Source of the DNA: a virus
Virus record (IMG/VR): IMGVR_UViG_3300044825_002592
Location: 1 to 25,679 of that record
Length of the DNA stretch: 25,679 nt
Strand: one strand, 5' to 3'
In this document: positions 4,842 to 20,986 of the stretch, in pieces
Layout of the letters: the number at the start of each line of letters is the position of its first letter
Position numbering within the stretch: position 1 is the stretch's first letter
Position numbers and translations under genes: made by a program
The notes under the pieces: generated by a model
The model's database searches: none
Told to the model about the DNA's origin: nothing
What the model saw: the letters and a program-made list of their open reading frames with translations, nothing else

Positions 4842-4926
4842 TAGCTCGGGCGGGGGTCGAACCCGCATGATCACAATGATCGTGAGATTTTAAGTCTCAT
4901 ATGTCTACCAATTCCATCACCGAGCC
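4842..4926 (-). tRNA. tRNA-Leu (anticodon UAA)
   Basis: An 85-nt cloverleaf with a class II variable arm. The acceptor 5' strand is GGCTCGG, pairing with CCGAGCT (one G-U). The anticodon stem TGAGA/TCTCA encloses CTTAAAA, giving UAA. The long variable arm contains CGATCA/TGATCA-type pairing. The T arm is GCGGG-TTCGACC-CCCGC. The 3' CCA is not encoded. It would read UUA (and UUG) codons. It sits 3 nt from the next tRNA, in the same direction. Confidence 0.93.
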
Positions 4927-4929
4927 AGG

Positions 4930-5002
4930 TGCGCGTCGTGAGGATCGAACTCACCTACCGCGAATTATGAGTTCGCTGCATTCACCAGATTGCTAGACGC
5001 GC
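4930..5002 (-). tRNA. tRNA with CAU anticodon (elongator Met, or Ile2)
   Basis: A 73-nt cloverleaf: acceptor GCGCGTC/GACGCGC (7 perfect pairs), D stem GCA/TGC with GG in the loop, anticodon stem GCGAA/TTCGC with loop CTCATAA, five-base variable loop, T arm GTGAG-TTCGATC-CTCAC, discriminator A. G1-C72 pairs, so it is not an initiator type. A CAU anticodon can be Met, or Ile if position 34 is changed to lysidine, and the sequence alone does not decide. CCA is not encoded. Confidence 0.92.
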
Positions 5003-8062: not shown

Positions 8063-8368
8063 TCAAAACTTTTATCCCCATTTTGCCAGCAAAATTATCT
8101 TAGGCTTCTCGCCCACCCCGTCGAGGTAAGTCCCTATATAAAAAAAAGGCAAGATTGCGAGGAATTGTGTATAGCGAGCGCCGGCCTGGGTGATGAGTAG
8201 CGCCGCACTAAGTATCATTTAGTAATGTTAAGTTGTATATTTAACTTTGTGAACGTAGTTATAGTTCATCTGTACTGGGGTGGGGTCCTATCACCTTTCG
8301 TTTCAAACGCTTGACAGCTGCACCGCTGGCGTGGTAGTTGCGCGCGCGCCGCGCGTTTCGTCTTTTAA

Positions 8369-8496
8369 CTAGGTGCGGACCCTGGCATTGTGTGCCAATC
8401 AGTGAACCGGTTGAGAGGGGTTGACGGTTGCACCGGATCCGAGCGATGCTGTGCTCACTGGAGAGACGGGTTCGCCCCGGACGCCAGAGCACCTAG
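8369..8496 (+). other. Multibranch RNA domain within the non-coding region
   Basis: Outer helix of 8 perfect pairs: CTAGGTGC (8369-8376) with GCACCTAG (8489-8496). Inside are hairpins TGGCA/TGCCA (8383-8397), AACCG/CGGTT (8405-8429) and GTGCTC/GAGCAC (8451-8492), the last containing CGGG-TTCG-CCCG. The final arm shares bases 8489-8492 with the outer helix, and GGTGC can instead pair with GCACC at 8430-8434, so alternative folds exist. Confidence 0.5.
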
Positions 8497-8728
8497 ACAA
8501 CTCAGCCACGCCGCGCCCGATACAAGGGCCGGGATCACAGGGCAGCCGATGGTAGGGAGCACTTCCCCGAAACGTAGGTAGACGCTCAGAGATCCTAGCT
8601 TGAAACTGTGGGCATCGTGTGGCTGTGTTGCTAGGCAAGGAACCTAGACAATCTAACTAAGCGTAAGTGTAGTAGGAACACTGCGAGGCTAGTACGAAAC
8701 GTACTGCGTTTAGTTATACATAACTTCC

Positions 8729-8794
8729 CATAGAGTGTGGGCAATGCAGCCGAACTTAAGTAGGCCGCCAGGGAGAAGCACCCTACACTCTATG
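8729..8794 (+). other. Long stem-loop, 13 pairs, with a GGCCGCCAGGGAGA element in its loop
   Basis: CATAGAGTGTGGG (8729-8741) pairs with CCCTACACTCTATG (8781-8794) with a single bulged T. The 39-nt apical part contains GGCCGCCAGGGAGA (8763-8776), which recurs at 15322-15335 in the leader of the MoxR-VWA operon. Direct sequence observation; RNA function inferred. Confidence 0.65.
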
Positions 8795-9127
8795 TCAGCA
8801 GGTATCTTGTCTGTAACTAAGACAAACTATCGGCGCTAAATGTCAGCCACCCTCGCCGCGTGGCACCTGAATACAACCTAACTTGTCAGCGTACAGTTAG
8901 TTACAGCGTACAGATTCTCTTGTCTGGGGGTAGGTTGCATCTTATCCCCTTGCTTCATTCTCCCGAAACACACTAGTGCGTATCACTACGATGTCGGGCC
9001 GAGGTTAACGAGTGGGGTTTGAGCACTCTGTACGTTGTAACTAACTGTGTGCTAGGCATTATGTTTCAACTTTTCTGGGTGACCTGTTCTGTGTGGGTCG
9101 CCTGAATGTAACTAACTTGTCAGCGGG

Positions 9128-9158
9128 TAGGTTCAATTAAGGATCAACCTTGAACCTA
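9128..9158 (+). other. Hairpin near the right end of the non-coding region
   Basis: TAGGTTCAA and AGG on the left arm (with a 3-nt bulge) pair with CCTTGAACCTA on the right arm, giving 11-12 pairs around ATCAA. No T-run follows, so it is not an intrinsic terminator. Confidence 0.55.
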
Positions 9159-9203
9159 TTTGATCACGGACTAGATTCTCTCCTCAAGCTATACAGTTTG
9201 ATG

Positions 9204-9224
9204 AGGGATTCATCCCTCTTTGTT
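9204..9224 (+). terminator. Weak terminator-like hairpin before the first small gene
   Basis: GAGGGATTCATCCCTC (6 pairs with a TTCA loop) is followed by TTTGTTG. The T-tract is short, so termination would be partial. It could end the upstream non-coding transcript or shield the leader of the gene at 9239. Confidence 0.35.
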
Positions 9225-9238
9225 GTCAGCTGCCAGCC

Positions 9239-9574: not shown

Positions 9575-9605
9575 CTAACTGTAACTAACCCATCGCAATC
9601 TGATC

Positions 9606-12553: not shown

Positions 12554-12952
12554 GTGAAGAAAGTCTTGATTGTGGCGGCTGGTGCGGCCGCCTTTGTTGT
12601 AGCAGCTGTCGCAGCAACATTGATCAACTCGGTGGTGAGTGCTCTAATTCCTGGGAGGTCGCCAGATCCACCGGGCAAACTAGACCCTTCACCTGAAGAG
12701 AAAGCGAAGGCTGAATGGAAAACACAGATGGGCGAATCTCAAGAGACTAAACCCGACACAACCGCAGCCCCTGCCCCCAAACAGGAATCTGTAACTACGG
12801 AGGAACAACCATTAAACCCCGCACCTGAATACCTACCTGAACCCCCGAGGGCTGTGGCACAACCCACGCTCCCAAGGGCTGCGACTGGGCCTGGTAACCT
12901 GGACGCCCCGTCTTACAATCCGCCGCCCCAAGTTGGACCCGGAAACCTCTAA
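12554..12952 (+). CDS. Membrane-anchored Pro-rich protein
   Basis: GTG start six bases after the SH3 gene; 132 residues. One N-terminal membrane segment (about residues 3-33, Val/Ala-rich) is followed by about 100 residues rich in Pro, Glu, Lys and Thr with no fold, resembling periplasm-spanning linkers. The motif GPGNL occurs twice near the C-terminus (last five residues VGPGNL region and 20 residues earlier), and GPGNV occurs in the next protein. It could bridge membrane and wall. Its stop overlaps the next ATG (TAATG). Confidence 0.72.
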   Translation: MKKVLIVAAGAAAFVVAAVAATLINSVVSALIPGRSPDPPGKLDPSPEEKAKAEWKTQMGESQETKPDTTAAPAPKQESVTTEEQPLNPAPEYLPEPPRAVAQPTLPRAATGPGNLDAPSYNPPPQVGPGNL

Positions 12953-13701
12953 TGAAAATCCCAATGATCGCAACACTCGCAACATGCGCCGGAATCGGAG
13001 CTTGTCTTCTTGTTAGTCAGGGAGCACAGCTGATGGCGCAACGGGAAGCCCGTCAGGATCACATAAGGCAGATGATGTATGCGCAGGCTACACCATTAGA
13101 ACAAGGTCCTGGCAATGTAGTTACAGATCTTCCGCCAGGAATACTTCCACTTGACGCGACTCCAACCCCAGGAGTTTCTATTGAGCCGGGTTCGCTTCGG
13201 CCGAGCATTCAACTCAAACCCGGAGCAAAGCTGCCAAATGTAACCAACCAAGCTGCAGCCTACTTAGTGCTGAGGAAGTCTACCAAAGTTATCAAGGAAA
13301 CCAAGGATCCCATTTGGGAGCTAGTGTTGATGAACACTCAAAGCATCCCACTTGAAACTCTGCCTAGTGTTACCGGTAGATCGTACCGACAAACAGCAAA
13401 CCGCAATCAAAGCGGAACAAAGGCACCGCTACCTAAAGGAACTTACAGAATTGAAAGATTGGGAATTGAAGCGGGACCTTTTGCTGATCCCGAGTTAGGT
13501 AGAGGATTCTGGGTGCCGATTACACCCCTGTTCGCCACGGGGCGATCGGATTTGGGATTCCATCAAGATCCTAGTTGGGGCAAACTCAACGGGGAGTCTG
13601 GTACAAGCGGCTGCATTGGGATGCAGTCTGCATCTGACACAGTGAAGTTAGTAACTTGGATTAAACATTACAACATACAGAAGCTTATTGTAGAGAGTTA
13701 A
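12952..13701 (+). CDS. L,D-transpeptidase-like (YkuD-type) protein, membrane-anchored
   Basis: Two hundred and forty-nine residues. An N-terminal hydrophobic stretch (about residues 4-28) acts as anchor or signal, followed by a Pro-rich linker with GPGNV and then a catalytic domain. The YkuD signature is present: His204 (LGFHQDP) and Cys221 in SGTSGCIGM. In place of the usual Arg after Cys-Ile/Val there is Gly, as in a GTxGCIG subgroup. These enzymes form or edit 3-3 peptidoglycan crosslinks or attach proteins to the wall. It may protect the wall, block superinfection or aid lysis; the sequence does not decide. Confidence 0.8.
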   Translation: MKIPMIATLATCAGIGACLLVSQGAQLMAQREARQDHIRQMMYAQATPLEQGPGNVVTDLPPGILPLDATPTPGVSIEPGSLRPSIQLKPGAKLPNVTNQAAAYLVLRKSTKVIKETKDPIWELVLMNTQSIPLETLPSVTGRSYRQTANRNQSGTKAPLPKGTYRIERLGIEAGPFADPELGRGFWVPITPLFATGRSDLGFHQDPSWGKLNGESGTSGCIGMQSASDTVKLVTWIKHYNIQKLIVES

Positions 13702-14404: not shown

Positions 14405-14614
14405 ATGATTTCTGAGTTGCTTACTTCCTTGCACGTGCATCCCTCCAACGAACTTGCCGAAAAAGAGTTCGACATTTTCTCCAGAGCTTTCCGTCCAACC
14501 TGGCAGTATGCGTGCTCCCTACGAGCAGAATCACCGGAAAAAGCGAAGAAGATCTTTATGATCGAAAACGCAATAAATGATCCGATGAAAGTTGCGGTGT
14601 ACCTCAAACGGTAG
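14405..14614 (+). CDS. Hypothetical helical small protein, 69 aa
   Basis: ATG at 14405 without a Shine-Dalgarno. Sequence: MISELLTSLHVHPSNELAEK, then a long helical region FDIFSRAFRPTWQYACSLRA and EKAKKIFMIENAINDP. No family recognised. It stands alone between two spacers, with the tRNA-like element after it, so support is composition only. Confidence 0.5.
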   Translation: MISELLTSLHVHPSNELAEKEFDIFSRAFRPTWQYACSLRAESPEKAKKIFMIENAINDPMKVAVYLKR

Positions 14615-14641
14615 CCCTTGAAACCCTGGTACATTATTTAG

Positions 14642-14726
14642 GTAGACGACGGCGTGCCTGGTGGCTGTTCAACAGAAGCCAATTTGATTTGAACATGTGT
14701 GGGTTCGATCCCCCAACGCCGTCTAC
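14642..14726 (+). ncRNA. tRNA-like element (degenerate or unusual)
   Basis: GTAGAC (14642-14647) and GGCGT (14651-14655) pair with ACGCC (14716-14720) and GTCTAC (14721-14726), an 11-pair stem with a GAC bulge. Read as a tRNA, ACGGCGT/ACGCCGT is a perfect 7-pair acceptor around about 60 nt, and GGGTTCGATCCCC is a canonical T loop on a weak stem. A short D-like stem CTG/CAG is possible, but no 5-pair anticodon arm with a 7-nt loop can be found. CCA is not encoded. It may be a decayed tRNA, a tRNA mimic, or a tRNA fragment such as an attachment core. Confidence 0.45.
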
Positions 14727-14816
14727 ACCTTTACAAGTGCACTAGTATCCTCTAGTATTTACGCGGCGCCACCGGCCGCACCAAACGCGGTGGACTCACA
14801 TCACTTGATCATCCTC

Positions 14817-15245
14817 ATGAGCATCCGATCCAGCGAGCTGGTTAAGCTTGGCGAGCTCGCCGCCGAAACCTTTGACGAACGCGACAAAGCTCAGACAGCC
14901 CTGGATCAATCTTTCGGGTTGCCGTTTGAAGCTTCCCGAGACAACCTCCTACGAGACATCCAGATCGCAGAGACAGAAGGCTTAGATCTCAGTGTGTTTT
15001 CCGGATCTGAGAGTCGCTTTAAGTTCCCCGTCTACAACACAAACATCGTCGTCCGAATCTCAAAGATTCCCACGCCGCACGACAAACTAGAAAAGCTTCA
15101 GGCCAAGGTTGCGAAGCTAGAGCACGAACTGAAGCTCGCCAAGCTGGCTCTGAAACATACAGCTGAGCAGTTGGTAGCAGCGCACGAGTGCGACGAGATG
15201 ACCGACCGGATTTCGCTTGCGTTCACAAGGCTGCGCAAGGGATAA
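14817..15245 (+). CDS. Coiled-coil protein, 142 aa
   Basis: The start is chosen at ATG 14817; the frame extends upstream to 14697 but would overlap the tRNA-like element. The N-terminal half is mixed (MSIRSSELVKLGELAAETFD, then a region with FKFPVYNTNIVVRISKIP). Residues about 92-125 form a heptad-patterned coiled coil (KLEKLQAKVAKLEHELKLAK and on). It precedes the attenuator-like leader, whose terminator would end this transcript. Function unknown. Confidence 0.65.
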   Translation: MSIRSSELVKLGELAAETFDERDKAQTALDQSFGLPFEASRDNLLRDIQIAETEGLDLSVFSGSESRFKFPVYNTNIVVRISKIPTPHDKLEKLQAKVAKLEHELKLAKLALKHTAEQLVAAHECDEMTDRISLAFTRLRKG

Positions 15246-15273
15246 TCTGTATCAATTTATGAGTTCCGTGACA

Positions 15274-15366
15274 AACCCTGTACATGTGGGGTTCCGTCCG
15301 GTAAGATGAGCCCGGCGGTAAGGCCGCCAGGGAGAGAGCGAACCTCCGTTTTTCGGAGGTTTTTTC
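15274..15366 (+). promoter_or_regulatory. Attenuator-like leader with competing helices upstream of the MoxR-VWA operon
   Basis: Segment 1 is AACCC (15274-15278), segment 2 GGGGTTC (15288-15294), segment 3 GAACCTC (15340-15346) and segment 4 CGGAGGTT (15354-15361). 1 pairs with 2 (5 pairs) and 3 with 4 (terminator), or 2 pairs with 3 (7 pairs, one G-U), which would undo the terminator. Between 2 and 3 lies a stable hairpin CCC-GGCGG/CCGCC-A-GGG (15311-15332) containing GGCCGCCAGGGAGA. This is the geometry of transcription attenuation or a riboswitch; ligand unknown. Confidence 0.5.
15341..15366 (+). terminator. Rho-independent terminator
   Basis: AACCTCCG-TTTTT-CGGAGGTT, 8 perfect pairs, followed by TTTTTTC. 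It lies between the coiled-coil gene and the MoxR-VWA operon on the plus strand. Its left arm also takes part in the alternative helix described for the leader. Confidence 0.88.
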
Positions 15367-15401
15367 TTACACAAAACAACCGCGACTACTTAACTAATCA
15401 G

Positions 15402-16613
15402 ATGACTACCCACTACCTTCTCGCCTGTTCTGTTTCTGCCAGTGTGCGGCAGAGTGTACAGATTAAGTTCGACGATCTTAAGCTACCTCAATCTGTAATC
15501 GAAACTCTTGAGAAAAATAATACAGTCAGCCTCCGGCCGAATCTCAGCAACGCACTTAAGAACAAACTTGATTCGCTGCGCGTTATGCAGCGTGAACTTT
15601 ATGATGGGTATTGTATTCATTATAATGATTGTCACTTTCTCACTGCTTCCTACTTTGAGTCTGCTAATCAGCTGATCAAAGAGATCCGTAAAGAAGCCGA
15701 TAAGGCGAACGACGAACTGAAAGATCTGTGGGAATCTGAATTCCAAAATTGGAAGCAAACGGCAGAAGGCATCCTGCGACCGCTGTTCAAGGATGAGGCT
15801 GAGTTCAGCTTGGCCTACGAGGCTTACTTGCGGATCTTCCCCACGCGGCAAGAGTACAAAACTCCAATTCGCGTTTCTGTGTTGGGACCTCTGCCCGTCT
15901 CCCTAACCAAAGTAGACAAACCAATTGACGGTGACGCCATTGCTCTAGCTGCTTACGAGAATCAGATCAACACAGCGCAGGTTTTGGAAAACGCCAAGAA
16001 CAACGCAGCGGACAAAGCCCTACTGATCAGTGCGGAACTCCTGGATGATCTGGATGTTCGTTCGGACAGCAAGATCGGTAAACAACAGACAGGAGGAGAT
16101 AAGAAGCGTGGTTCTTGGCAGATCACCGCGGAGAAGCTGCAGCTGATCAGCGATTCTGTTCCCGGCTTCGAAAACCTATCACAACTCGCCCAACGGCTGC
16201 TTCAAGCCGGTATTGACATTCAAGATCCGGATCGGAGCGTAAGGACGCAAGGAAGCAAGGAGTTCTTCCAAGTTCAAGACGAAATCAAACTCGAACTTGA
16301 GGAGATCTGCAACAATCGGCAACCTTCAAAAGGTCTGAACGCGTTGCAACAGTCGCTCACCTTCTCAAATAGCTACAAAACTCTCTGCGAGCGGATCAAA
16401 ACTGTAGAAAACAGCGACGCTTTAGATACGTTGATTAAAGATGTAGACCTTGAGCTAAATGTTTATGAACAACGGGCTAAGCAGTTGAAAAAACTTGTAC
16501 AACAACGCCGCGAGCTTATCGGCGAGGCTGACGAAAACCTCGATAATCTTCTCGACGAAGTCACAGAAGACGAAGAGACTTCCGTTGCAGCTCTCAACAA
16601 CATCGACTTCTGA
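15402..16613 (+). CDS. Coiled-coil partner protein of the MoxR-VWA set (DUF3150-like?), 403 aa
   Basis: The start is chosen at ATG 15402, because the longer frame from 15306 would run through the terminator hairpin. N-terminal residues 1-60 form a beta/alpha segment (YLLACSVSASVRQSVQIKF), followed by an all-helical region rich in Glu, Lys and Gln with coiled-coil stretches (about residues 90-135 and 325-385) and an acidic tail (NLDNLLDEVTEDEE). Trios of a DUF3150 protein, a CobS/MoxR ATPase and a CobT/VWA protein occur on integrative elements and some phages. Size, position and layout fit that partner, but no conserved motif confirms it. Confidence 0.78.
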   Translation: MTTHYLLACSVSASVRQSVQIKFDDLKLPQSVIETLEKNNTVSLRPNLSNALKNKLDSLRVMQRELYDGYCIHYNDCHFLTASYFESANQLIKEIRKEADKANDELKDLWESEFQNWKQTAEGILRPLFKDEAEFSLAYEAYLRIFPTRQEYKTPIRVSVLGPLPVSLTKVDKPIDGDAIALAAYENQINTAQVLENAKNNAADKALLISAELLDDLDVRSDSKIGKQQTGGDKKRGSWQITAEKLQLISDSVPGFENLSQLAQRLLQAGIDIQDPDRSVRTQGSKEFFQVQDEIKLELEEICNNRQPSKGLNALQQSLTFSNSYKTLCERIKTVENSDALDTLIKDVDLELNVYEQRAKQLKKLVQQRRELIGEADENLDNLLDEVTEDEETSVAALNNIDF

Positions 16614-16633
16614 TTACGTACCTAAAACTAACC

Positions 16634-17821
16634 ATGAACAACAAAACTTTCGTAAAGCTTCAAACGTTTCGCTCCTGGCTTAACGTAGCAAACCTTGAGC
16701 GAGAGGAGATCGTAGACGGACTTCTCGCCTCCCTGATCAGCCGTCAAAACGCATTCCTGCTCGGCGAACCAGGAACCGGTAAATCTGATCTAGTGCGATC
16801 CATCTGTAAAGGGATCTCAGGGGCCAACTACTTCGGGTATCTACTTACGCCCACGACAGATCCCTCGGAGGTCTTTGGCCCTGTGGCTGTAACCAAACTT
16901 CTGCAAGATGAGTACAGCCGAGATGTCGACGGATACTTGCCCTCGGCGCACATCGGATTTTTAGACGAGATGTTCCGCGGTAGTTCAGCAATCCTGAACT
17001 CGCTGTTGATGCTCCTTAACGAGAGAACATTCAACAACGGTAAGGAGTACATCCAAACACCGATCGAATCCATCGTCGCTGCCACGAACAGCTGGCCTGA
17101 GGAAGAGTCGCTACAGGCTTTTGCGGATCGTTTTCTGTTCCGCCCAACTGTGCTCCCTCTAAAGAAACCCAGCTCTAAACGGATTCTTGATCAGTGGGCG
17201 CTGGGAATCGAAAAGCGGCCCACCATTGGAGAGTATTTAACTCTCGAAGAGTTGAAAGAGCTACAGGAATCTGCTGAGAATATAAAAATCTCAGACGAGT
17301 TTCTAGATAAGTTTGGGTCTGTTTGGGATATGTTGCAGCAACGGTCAATCACCATCAGCGATCGTCGTCGGGTTCAGATTCTCAAGTTCCTGAAAGCGTG
17401 GGCAGTTGTGCAGGGAGACAGCGAACTATATCCCGAACACATGCACAACAGCATCACTCACATCGTGTACAGGACGGAAGAGGACAAGCTAACGATTAAA
17501 GAAACTCTCGACCAAGAGATCCCAACTGCGGACAACATCTTGGCCACGGCGAAACGAGCTGCGGCAGGCATTCTTTCGGAGTACACCGCAACAGCGCATC
17601 GCTTTAAGTCCAAAGGGCTGCAAGATCTAAATGAATATGTGATCTTTCTTCGGCGGTGTCACAAGGACATCGATACGATCAAAACTAAAGTATCTGAAGT
17701 TCTAGACGACGACAAGAAACGCATGGGCGCTAAAACCCGTACGGACGGGGTGAAGCTAATCCAGTCTTTGGAAACGCACAGCGCAACATTTGCTAAAGCC
17801 ATCAACGAATTCAGTAAGTAG
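16634..17821 (+). CDS. MoxR-family AAA+ ATPase, RavA-like
   Basis: Three hundred and ninety-five residues. Walker A is GEPGTGKS (44-51), Walker B IGFLDE (107-112), sensor 1 AATNS (149-153), and an arginine in ADRF (166) and SDRRR further on suit the finger and sensor 2. DPSEVFGPV and ILNSLLMLLNERTF are the RavA/MoxR signature around the pore and beta hairpin. MoxR ATPases work with VWA proteins in assembly or remodelling of other complexes. The VWA gene starts two bases after the stop. The C-terminal 150 residues are helical, as in the RavA triple-helix/LARA part, but not recognisably LARA. Confidence 0.92.
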   Translation: MNNKTFVKLQTFRSWLNVANLEREEIVDGLLASLISRQNAFLLGEPGTGKSDLVRSICKGISGANYFGYLLTPTTDPSEVFGPVAVTKLLQDEYSRDVDGYLPSAHIGFLDEMFRGSSAILNSLLMLLNERTFNNGKEYIQTPIESIVAATNSWPEEESLQAFADRFLFRPTVLPLKKPSSKRILDQWALGIEKRPTIGEYLTLEELKELQESAENIKISDEFLDKFGSVWDMLQQRSITISDRRRVQILKFLKAWAVVQGDSELYPEHMHNSITHIVYRTEEDKLTIKETLDQEIPTADNILATAKRAAAGILSEYTATAHRFKSKGLQDLNEYVIFLRRCHKDIDTIKTKVSEVLDDDKKRMGAKTRTDGVKLIQSLETHSATFAKAINEFSK

Positions 17822-17823
17822 CT

Positions 17824-19374
17824 ATGAACCTCAAAACCAACATCGAGTTCATTCGCCTAACTAACAACGAACCGCTGACTTTAGTTTGTTCTGCCTTGGC
17901 TGACTTCCTTTGGGAAGATTTCATCAGGGAGGCAAAGCCATCGGTTAAATACTTGACGGAAACCCACAACTTGAAGCAGCTCTCCAGATTCGGCAAAGAG
18001 CTATTCGAGAGGCTCTACAAAGCTGATGATGTCAACTGGCTCGTGTCACTGGAAGCCTACGAGGAGTACTTCCGAAAGGTGTGCGACGGCGACAAAGCTG
18101 CGCTTCCGGAAGGATACAAACCAGAAAACGGTTTCTGGTATTCCGTTATGGAAGACCTGTCAGCCGCAGCCGCTTGGCCGCAGATGCTCCAGCACTGCAG
18201 CGGAGAACAGTACAACAGCGCTAACAATGCCGTGGTAATTCTCAACAAACTATCGGACGTTATAGAAAATGCGATCGATCAAGGGATGGTAAACATTCAG
18301 CTGCTTGCCCACGCTGGGCAACGCCTTGAAGAACTCCGAAAGAATTTCCAGGAAGCACAAGACGCGGGAGATGTCGCTGCAGCAGCACAGTTCAGAAGAG
18401 AAGGTAAAGAACTAAACCAAGAGCTTAACGAAGCGATAGAGAACGCAAGGCAGACAATACAGAGTAAAGCAAATCAAATAATGGATGAAGCTCTAGCAGA
18501 GAGTAAAGAGAATAATGAAACTATTTCTACCCTGTGGGGTACCTCGGCGGGTGAGCGGCAACGGACTGAAAATATCGAAGAGAAGAAAGCCCTGGCTAGA
18601 AAGCTGCAAAACAATCCGAAGCTTAAACAAGTAGTTAAAAAGTTGGGAACACTTCAACGCGTTTGGTATGAGAGAAAAAGAGCTAAGTTATACAAGGCTA
18701 GTTATGAGTGTGTAACAGGAGCGGAATTTAGCAATAACGTAATCAAAGCTTTTCCATCGGAGTTGGCGTTGGCAGCCACGCCGCAGGGTAAAGCTCTGTT
18801 TGCGCTTAAGTATTCTCAGAAAACTTTAATGACAAAAGACTACACAGCGCACAGAAAAGATTTGGGAAAAGGTCCAATCATCATGTACATCGATGCCTCA
18901 GGCTCCATGAGCGGCGAGCTGGAGATTTGGAGTAAAGCGATAGCCATGGTCATAGCTGATCAAGCTCGAAAGGAAAACAGGAAAATATATGTGAATCTAT
19001 TTGACACGGCGGTAATGGAGCTTTTGGAGATCTGCGGAGACAACATGGTTAAGGCGGACCTGTTGGACGAGCTTTCGAGTTGGACGCTCGGTGGAGGAAC
19101 ATCCTTCAATGCCGTAATCAACCACATCGTTCACTTGGGATCTAAAGAGCCGAAAGCTGATGTGGTAATCTTGACCGACGGGCAAGCAGACGTTGGAGAT
19201 AACTTTGTGAGAGCACTGAATACTTATAAGACAAACACAGGAACGCAGGTGAGCACTGTATGTTTGAACATGGCGGTACCAGAAGTTTGCAACTTGTTTA
19301 GCGACGAAACATACAGCGTGAATATCTCTAATTCAGTCGATACAGTAGATGCAATTCAAAGATGTATTCGATAG
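17824..19374 (+). CDS. VWA-domain protein, ViaA/CobT-like partner of the MoxR ATPase
   Basis: Five hundred and sixteen residues. The N-terminal 340 residues are helical, with an Ala/Glu/Gln-rich coiled region (about 160-235). The VWA domain is C-terminal, as in ViaA: MIDAS D-x-S-x-S is Asp357-Ser359-Ser361 (MYIDASGSMSG), the Thr is in GGGTSF (about 426), and the Asp in LTDGQAD (452). All MIDAS residues are intact, so metal-dependent ligand binding is expected. It is translated right after the ATPase. In known pairs the VWA protein recruits the substrate for the ATPase; the substrate here is unknown. Confidence 0.92.
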   Translation: MNLKTNIEFIRLTNNEPLTLVCSALADFLWEDFIREAKPSVKYLTETHNLKQLSRFGKELFERLYKADDVNWLVSLEAYEEYFRKVCDGDKAALPEGYKPENGFWYSVMEDLSAAAAWPQMLQHCSGEQYNSANNAVVILNKLSDVIENAIDQGMVNIQLLAHAGQRLEELRKNFQEAQDAGDVAAAAQFRREGKELNQELNEAIENARQTIQSKANQIMDEALAESKENNETISTLWGTSAGERQRTENIEEKKALARKLQNNPKLKQVVKKLGTLQRVWYERKRAKLYKASYECVTGAEFSNNVIKAFPSELALAATPQGKALFALKYSQKTLMTKDYTAHRKDLGKGPIIMYIDASGSMSGELEIWSKAIAMVIADQARKENRKIYVNLFDTAVMELLEICGDNMVKADLLDELSSWTLGGGTSFNAVINHIVHLGSKEPKADVVILTDGQADVGDNFVRALNTYKTNTGTQVSTVCLNMAVPEVCNLFSDETYSVNISNSVDTVDAIQRCIR

Positions 19375-20953: not shown

Positions 20954-20986
20954 GCACCCTCGGGACTCCTGAGGGTGCTTTTATTT
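20954..20986 (+). terminator. Rho-independent terminator
   Basis: GCACCCTC (20954-20961) pairs with GAGGGTGC (20971-20978), 8 perfect pairs, 9-nt loop, followed by TTTTATTT. Closes the MoxR-VWA operon before the DNA polymerase gene. Confidence 0.9.

Follow-up and report, generated by a model that had tools for sequence, protein, structure and literature searches.

The leader of the phage-borne up1-MoxR-VWA operon in the window analyzed here (W, the whole of the IMG/VR virus record IMGVR_UViG_3300044825_002592, 25,679 bases) is, on balance and with modest confidence, a promoter-proximal intercistronic intrinsic terminator with readthrough rather than a folding switch. At the level of sequence, the comparison with related leaders supports this reading by the conservation and fixed place of the putative terminator (T1), an over-represented promoter-like site, a hairpin (H1) that folds above chance, and a second putative terminator (T2) downstream. 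The element is ordinary in kind, conserved and regularly placed, and a promoter is predicted just 5' of it. A speculative RNA switch is thereby replaced by a simple layout that can be tested and that diverse phages of the group retain. Among the papers listed for phage MoxR-VWA operons and phage leader antitermination, none dealt with this leader.

The leader is bounded by the stop codon of an upstream gene at 15245 and the ATG of up1 at 15402. The upstream gene, termed coil (14808-15245, + strand), encodes approximately 145 aa that are coiled-coil-like and form the end of a longer open frame, and it lies immediately 5' of the operon in the relatives as well. The first gene of the operon, up1 (15402-16613, + strand), encodes 403 aa; we took its start as the ATG at 15402 because the relatives align there, while an alternative open frame listed from 15306 passes through T1. 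Pfam and PHROG searches gave no match for either coil or up1. The next two genes encode a MoxR AAA+ ATPase (16634-17821, + strand; PF20030 bpMoxR, E 3.3e-56) and a VWA-domain protein (17824-19374, + strand; PF05762 VWA_CoxE, E 1.9e-6), and these matches bear out the phage-borne MoxR-VWA operon recognized in the first-pass annotation. Elsewhere in the window, two adjoining tRNA genes were found on the - strand at 4842-4926 and 4930-5002. The protein encoded at 12952-13701 gave a borderline match to YkuD L,D-transpeptidase (23.3 bits against a cut-off of 23.4) and is possibly a cell-wall enzyme.

The putative terminator and its conservation in related leaders

A single close relative of W was found, namely L001, of which the up1 and MoxR proteins are 90% and 94% identical to those of W, respectively. 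Scans of viral contigs added more distant relatives, whose MoxR proteins are approximately 56% to 72% identical; one of these scans contributed the best 80 of 129 relatives. An exact DNA search of viral contigs with the leader core of W found 0 stretches, and a degenerate leader pattern found 1, on the contig of L001. Neither a blastn search with 14600-17900 against an annotated phage collection, in which nothing matched, nor a pattern scan based on the up1 alignment in bacterial and archaeal genome contigs, which yielded 32 pattern matches and 0 relatives, extended the sample. Removal of the leaders that were >98.5% identical to another reduced 154 leaders to 63 non-redundant ones.

T1 is located at 15340-15366 on the + strand, with the stem-loop GAACCTCCG-TTTTT-CGGAGGTTT at 15340-15362 and a T tract running on to 15366. 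Between W and L001, 26 of 27 bases are identical in the terminator, 24 of 32 in H1 plus the linker, and 25 of 35 in the gap, and both sequences carry a run of six Ts. The region from 15240 to 15380 folds better than all of 200 dinucleotide shuffles (z -3.83). A hairpin filter that required at least three Ts in the seven positions after the stem was passed by 35 of the 63 non-redundant leaders, and two of these (L078 and L095) were removed for lying inside the coil coding sequence. The noncoding hairpin with a T tract was thus present in 33 of 63 leaders, and its distance to the start codon was 36-44 nt in all 33, though the leader sequences do not align. The first 8 nt past the stem contain 5.4 Ts on average against 2.0 in the remaining gap, the filter itself having selected for T; a few relatives, namely L004, L027, L028, and L030, have a weak T tract. 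In most of the 28 leaders that failed the filter, either coil or a small frame leads directly into up1; L035, L057, L039, and L106 show weaker hairpins by eye. As sequence, T1 at the entrance of the up1-MoxR-VWA operon is real and conserved, and we infer that it terminates transcription.

In many relatives (L006, L008, L010, L033, L034, L042, L045, L055, L056, L061, and others), the interval from coil to the terminator holds a small frame of approximately 46-58 aa, whose product has a hydrophobic stretch and in most cases two cysteines. No such frame was seen between coil and the terminator in W and L001.

Promoter-like site, hairpin H1 and putative terminator T2

A sigma70-like promoter, TGTACA-17 nt-TAAGAT, is predicted at 15279-15307 on the + strand, with an RNA start at approximately 15314. 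It matches 8 of 12 consensus bases, and L001 has the same spacing and the same hexamers (6/6 at both -35 and -10). In 26 leaders, being the cluster representatives of the 33 that bear the terminator, the best site was scored with a matrix of E. coli values against dinucleotide shuffles. Promoter-like sites were enriched over the 80 nt that precede the stem (Fisher 2.4e-8), and remained so when near relatives were left out (Fisher 2.7e-6, n=19). Individually, p was below 0.05 in 9 of the 26 leaders (0.002 in W and 0.01 in L001) and not significant in the other 17; the site of L008 reads TTGACA-17-TAATCT. The same 26 leaders gave null results on the reverse strand (0.15), over the adjoining 80 nt further 5' (0.34), and between the stem and the start codon (Fisher 0.20), so that a promoter in the last of these intervals is unsupported. 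Coding constraint may contribute to the signal, as the site and the 3' end of the small peptide gene overlap in many relatives. Since counts of the two-hexamer pattern across the whole window are at chance level, the promoter in W is argued from its place and from the comparison with relatives, and not from its rarity in the window. A T at the sixth base of -10 in 13 of 13 leaders was discounted, for the hexamers had been picked by hand and the misfits L006, L007, L010, and L015 left out. On our reading, the site at 15279-15307 would fire as a promoter.

The GC-rich hairpin H1 (CCC-GGCGGU-AAG-GCCGCC-A-GGG) occupies 15311-15332 on the + strand, around the predicted RNA start. In 25 hand-chosen leaders, which include near relatives, the 55 nt that directly precede the terminator are more stably folded than shuffles (Fisher 2.8e-5), and the 40 nt before them show no excess of folding (0.61). 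The RNA from the predicted start often begins with a hairpin, and in a listing of 25 leaders the segments from the predicted start to the terminator, 23 of the 25 being long enough, likewise fold better than shuffles (Fisher 9.7e-5; the sample is hand-chosen with near relatives among it, and -10 was assigned by hand). In L022, L033, L042, L055, and L056, the first bases of the best H1 fold fall within the predicted -10 or at its border. This overlap in several relatives would favor RNA from further upstream over a local start, and H1 may therefore belong to RNA made further upstream. We make no claim of covariation for H1, because the MAFFT alignment of this region was too poor for counting pairs.

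On the downstream side, the bracketed genes end with T2 (20954-20982, + strand), a conserved putative terminator 22 nt before polA that is kept in L001 at 8065-8093. Equally strong hairpins within 90 nt were found for 2 of the 26 starts in W (up1 and polA) and for 14 of 400 random positions. In number, the hairpins before up1 and polA are thus little above chance, and it is their conservation and place that matter. As 22 nt cannot hold a usual promoter, polA is probably expressed by readthrough of T2. The probable readthrough before polA makes readthrough of T1 plausible and regulated antitermination possible.

We read the two terminators as bracketing the operon, with readthrough setting its expression. 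Transcription would arrive from the coil gene or start at the promoter at 15279-15307 (at approximately 15314), and both streams would meet H1 and then T1 approximately 50 nt further on. Most polymerases would stop at T1 and release a short RNA, and those reading through would transcribe up1-MoxR-VWA and the later genes as far as T2. T1 and T2 would together set the dose of the operon relative to its neighbors. Readthrough would accordingly be the route of operon expression, and terminator readthrough is likely to serve the MoxR-VWA operon and polA alike. Phage terminators of the ordinary intercistronic kind, which let part of the transcription through, have a short gap between genes, a hairpin with a T tract, and a downstream gene nearby. 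The same features are seen here, and before polA in both W and L001; the leader differs from such terminators in the predicted promoter just upstream and the fixed spacing of 36-44 nt.

Switch, gate and other readings of the leader

Attenuators of the trp type are characterized by an operon leader with mutually exclusive hairpins and a terminator. The first-pass annotation had proposed an attenuator or riboswitch-like leader of four segments, in which segment 2 would pair with segment 3 to block the terminator or with segment 1 to allow it. This description stands in part. The terminator is present, the independent hairpin between segments 2 and 3 is H1, and segments 1 and 2 can be read from the sequence as an inverted repeat, AACCCUGU-ACAU-GUGGGGUU, at approximately 15274-15293 on the + strand, overlapping the predicted -35 region. 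In W, each of the pairings that would exclude one another is possible on paper, including a 2:3 duplex between GGGGUUC (15288-15294) and GAACCUC (15340-15346). However, the competing 2:3 pairing is within chance expectation: its energy in W is ordinary against shuffled upstream sequence (p=0.32), and no antiterminator excess upstream of the terminator was detected in the 26 cluster representatives (Fisher p=0.56), L066 alone falling below 0.05. The fold forced to contain 2:3 is 6.6 kcal/mol dearer than the best one (-33.2 against -39.8), and the pair probability of 2:3 is at most 0.05 even with the 3' arm of the terminator left off, that is, before this arm would exist. In substance, this is the outcome that the first-pass annotation had named as refuting its proposal, with homologous leaders keeping the terminator stem (33 of 63) and not the switch.

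The alternative pairing was compared in L001, as the other leaders do not align. The 1:2 pairing survives three one-sided changes in L001, while one of the seven 2:3 pairs is altered on both sides and lost, the other six staying. The 2:3 pairing is thus neither fully conserved nor covarying in L001. The survival of 1:2 is weak evidence for that helix, because pairing is often retained after one-sided changes and the predicted -35 lies within reach of the repeat, which overlaps it. Segments 1:2 are absent from the best fold of 15274-15366 alone and present in that of 15240-15380. Moreover, the predicted promoter sits over or after segments 1 and 2, which would for this reason be untranscribed from it. 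A 16-aa frame at 15259-15309 in W was considered as an attenuator leader peptide and rejected, for it has no run of regulatory codons and its stop is lost in L001. The leader consequently resembles trp-type attenuators in its terminator, and differs from them in the unsupported antiterminator and in this frame. As to a riboswitch, Rfam searches of the whole window and, permissively, of the leader gave the leader no match to a known aptamer family or any other at the gathering score, and its best weak match was not credible (asX2, E 0.029, on the other strand and covering mainly the terminator hairpin). Altogether, we regard attenuation by 2:3 pairing as very improbable.

A regulated gate, in which a phage protein loads on the polymerase at the promoter and opens the terminator as lambdoid Q or AlpA does, is unlikely but the likeliest of the alternatives considered. 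The lambdoid Q gate, as in phage 21 (PMC6606751), combines the late promoter PR' with the terminator tR', and the AlpA gate (PMC9371919) combines the promoter PalpB with the terminator tB. The leader studied here would share with both gates the succession of a promoter (here predicted), a short transcribed leader, an intrinsic terminator and then the operon, and differs from them in the phage group, the operon, and the lack of an antiterminator gene of the three Q families searched. The layout is constant across the clade, and T2 before polA suggests that polymerases must pass terminators. On the other hand, the antiterminator-Q families PF06530, PF06323, and PF03589 were all below the cut-off in 10 of 10 clade records, which may be fragments. 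One sub-threshold antiterminator-Q fragment was found in G006. Units of the Q/AlpA type have a binding element in the promoter and a -10-like pause element among the first bases transcribed; in W, TAAGGC at 15319-15324, read from the sequence, lacks the final T of such a pause element. The more specific proposal that the succession of promoter, H1, terminator and TAACTAA forms a clade-wide gate, opened by a polymerase-modifying phage factor unlike the searched Q families, with single-stage expression of MoxR-VWA, is still more doubtful. Because the layout is fixed, a dedicated antiterminator, if there is one, should be easy to search for.

Two readings remain, and we hold both for improbable, to about the same degree. 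The promoter might give rise to a phage small RNA of approximately 53 nt, made of a 5' hairpin, a purine-rich linker and the terminator, with the operon being expressed separately. The predicted RNA does start at or beside a hairpin in many leaders and end at the terminator, and the folding excess of the 23 hand-chosen segments agrees with this; nevertheless, the linker and loop sequences vary across the clade, and the fixed distance from the terminator to the operon would be unexpected for an independent RNA gene. Alternatively, the hairpins might stabilize or process the operon mRNA, by 5' protection or as an RNase site, instead of terminating transcription. The hairpin predicted near the 5' end of the RNA in many leaders and the weak T tracts of some would suit such a role, while the family-wide enrichment of T directly after the stem and the six-T run of W and L001 argue for termination.

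TAACTAA motif and a conserved noncoding block

The motif TAACTAA lies just 5' of the up1 start codon (15391-15397, + strand) and is present in 31 of the 33 terminator-bearing leaders. Motifs of this kind lie near 9580, 9990, 10250, 15391, and 16626, each close 5' of a start codon, where no clear Shine-Dalgarno sequence is seen; a leaderless promoter and a ribosome site have been considered for it. As TAACTAA is complementary to the conserved arm GUUAGUUACA at 8896-8905, pairing between the motif and an RNA in trans is conceivable.

This arm belongs to a conserved noncoding block of approximately 1 kb (approximately 8200-9238, + strand) between divergent gene sets, which is more surprising than the leader. 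The block also occurs in the relatives L182-L190, L170, L172, L177, and L178. Over approximately 450 nt, it is 85-86% identical to the sequences of L014 and L182, compared with only approximately 69% for the MoxR proteins. An Rfam search with the block gave no match at E up to 10. The region 8460-9238 of W folds with a z of -6.7 on the + strand and -2.4 on the - strand (20 shuffles each). RNAalifold on eight rows (six distinct records) predicted 95 pairs, of which 19 have two-sided changes, though the total covariation term of +0.79 kcal/mol is unfavorable; one helix with two-sided changes joins GUUAGUUACA to UGUAACUAAC (9036-9045). Of 20 records compared with a model of the block's core, 7 matched, W included, 6 of them strongly. 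We propose the block as a candidate for a new large structured phage RNA.
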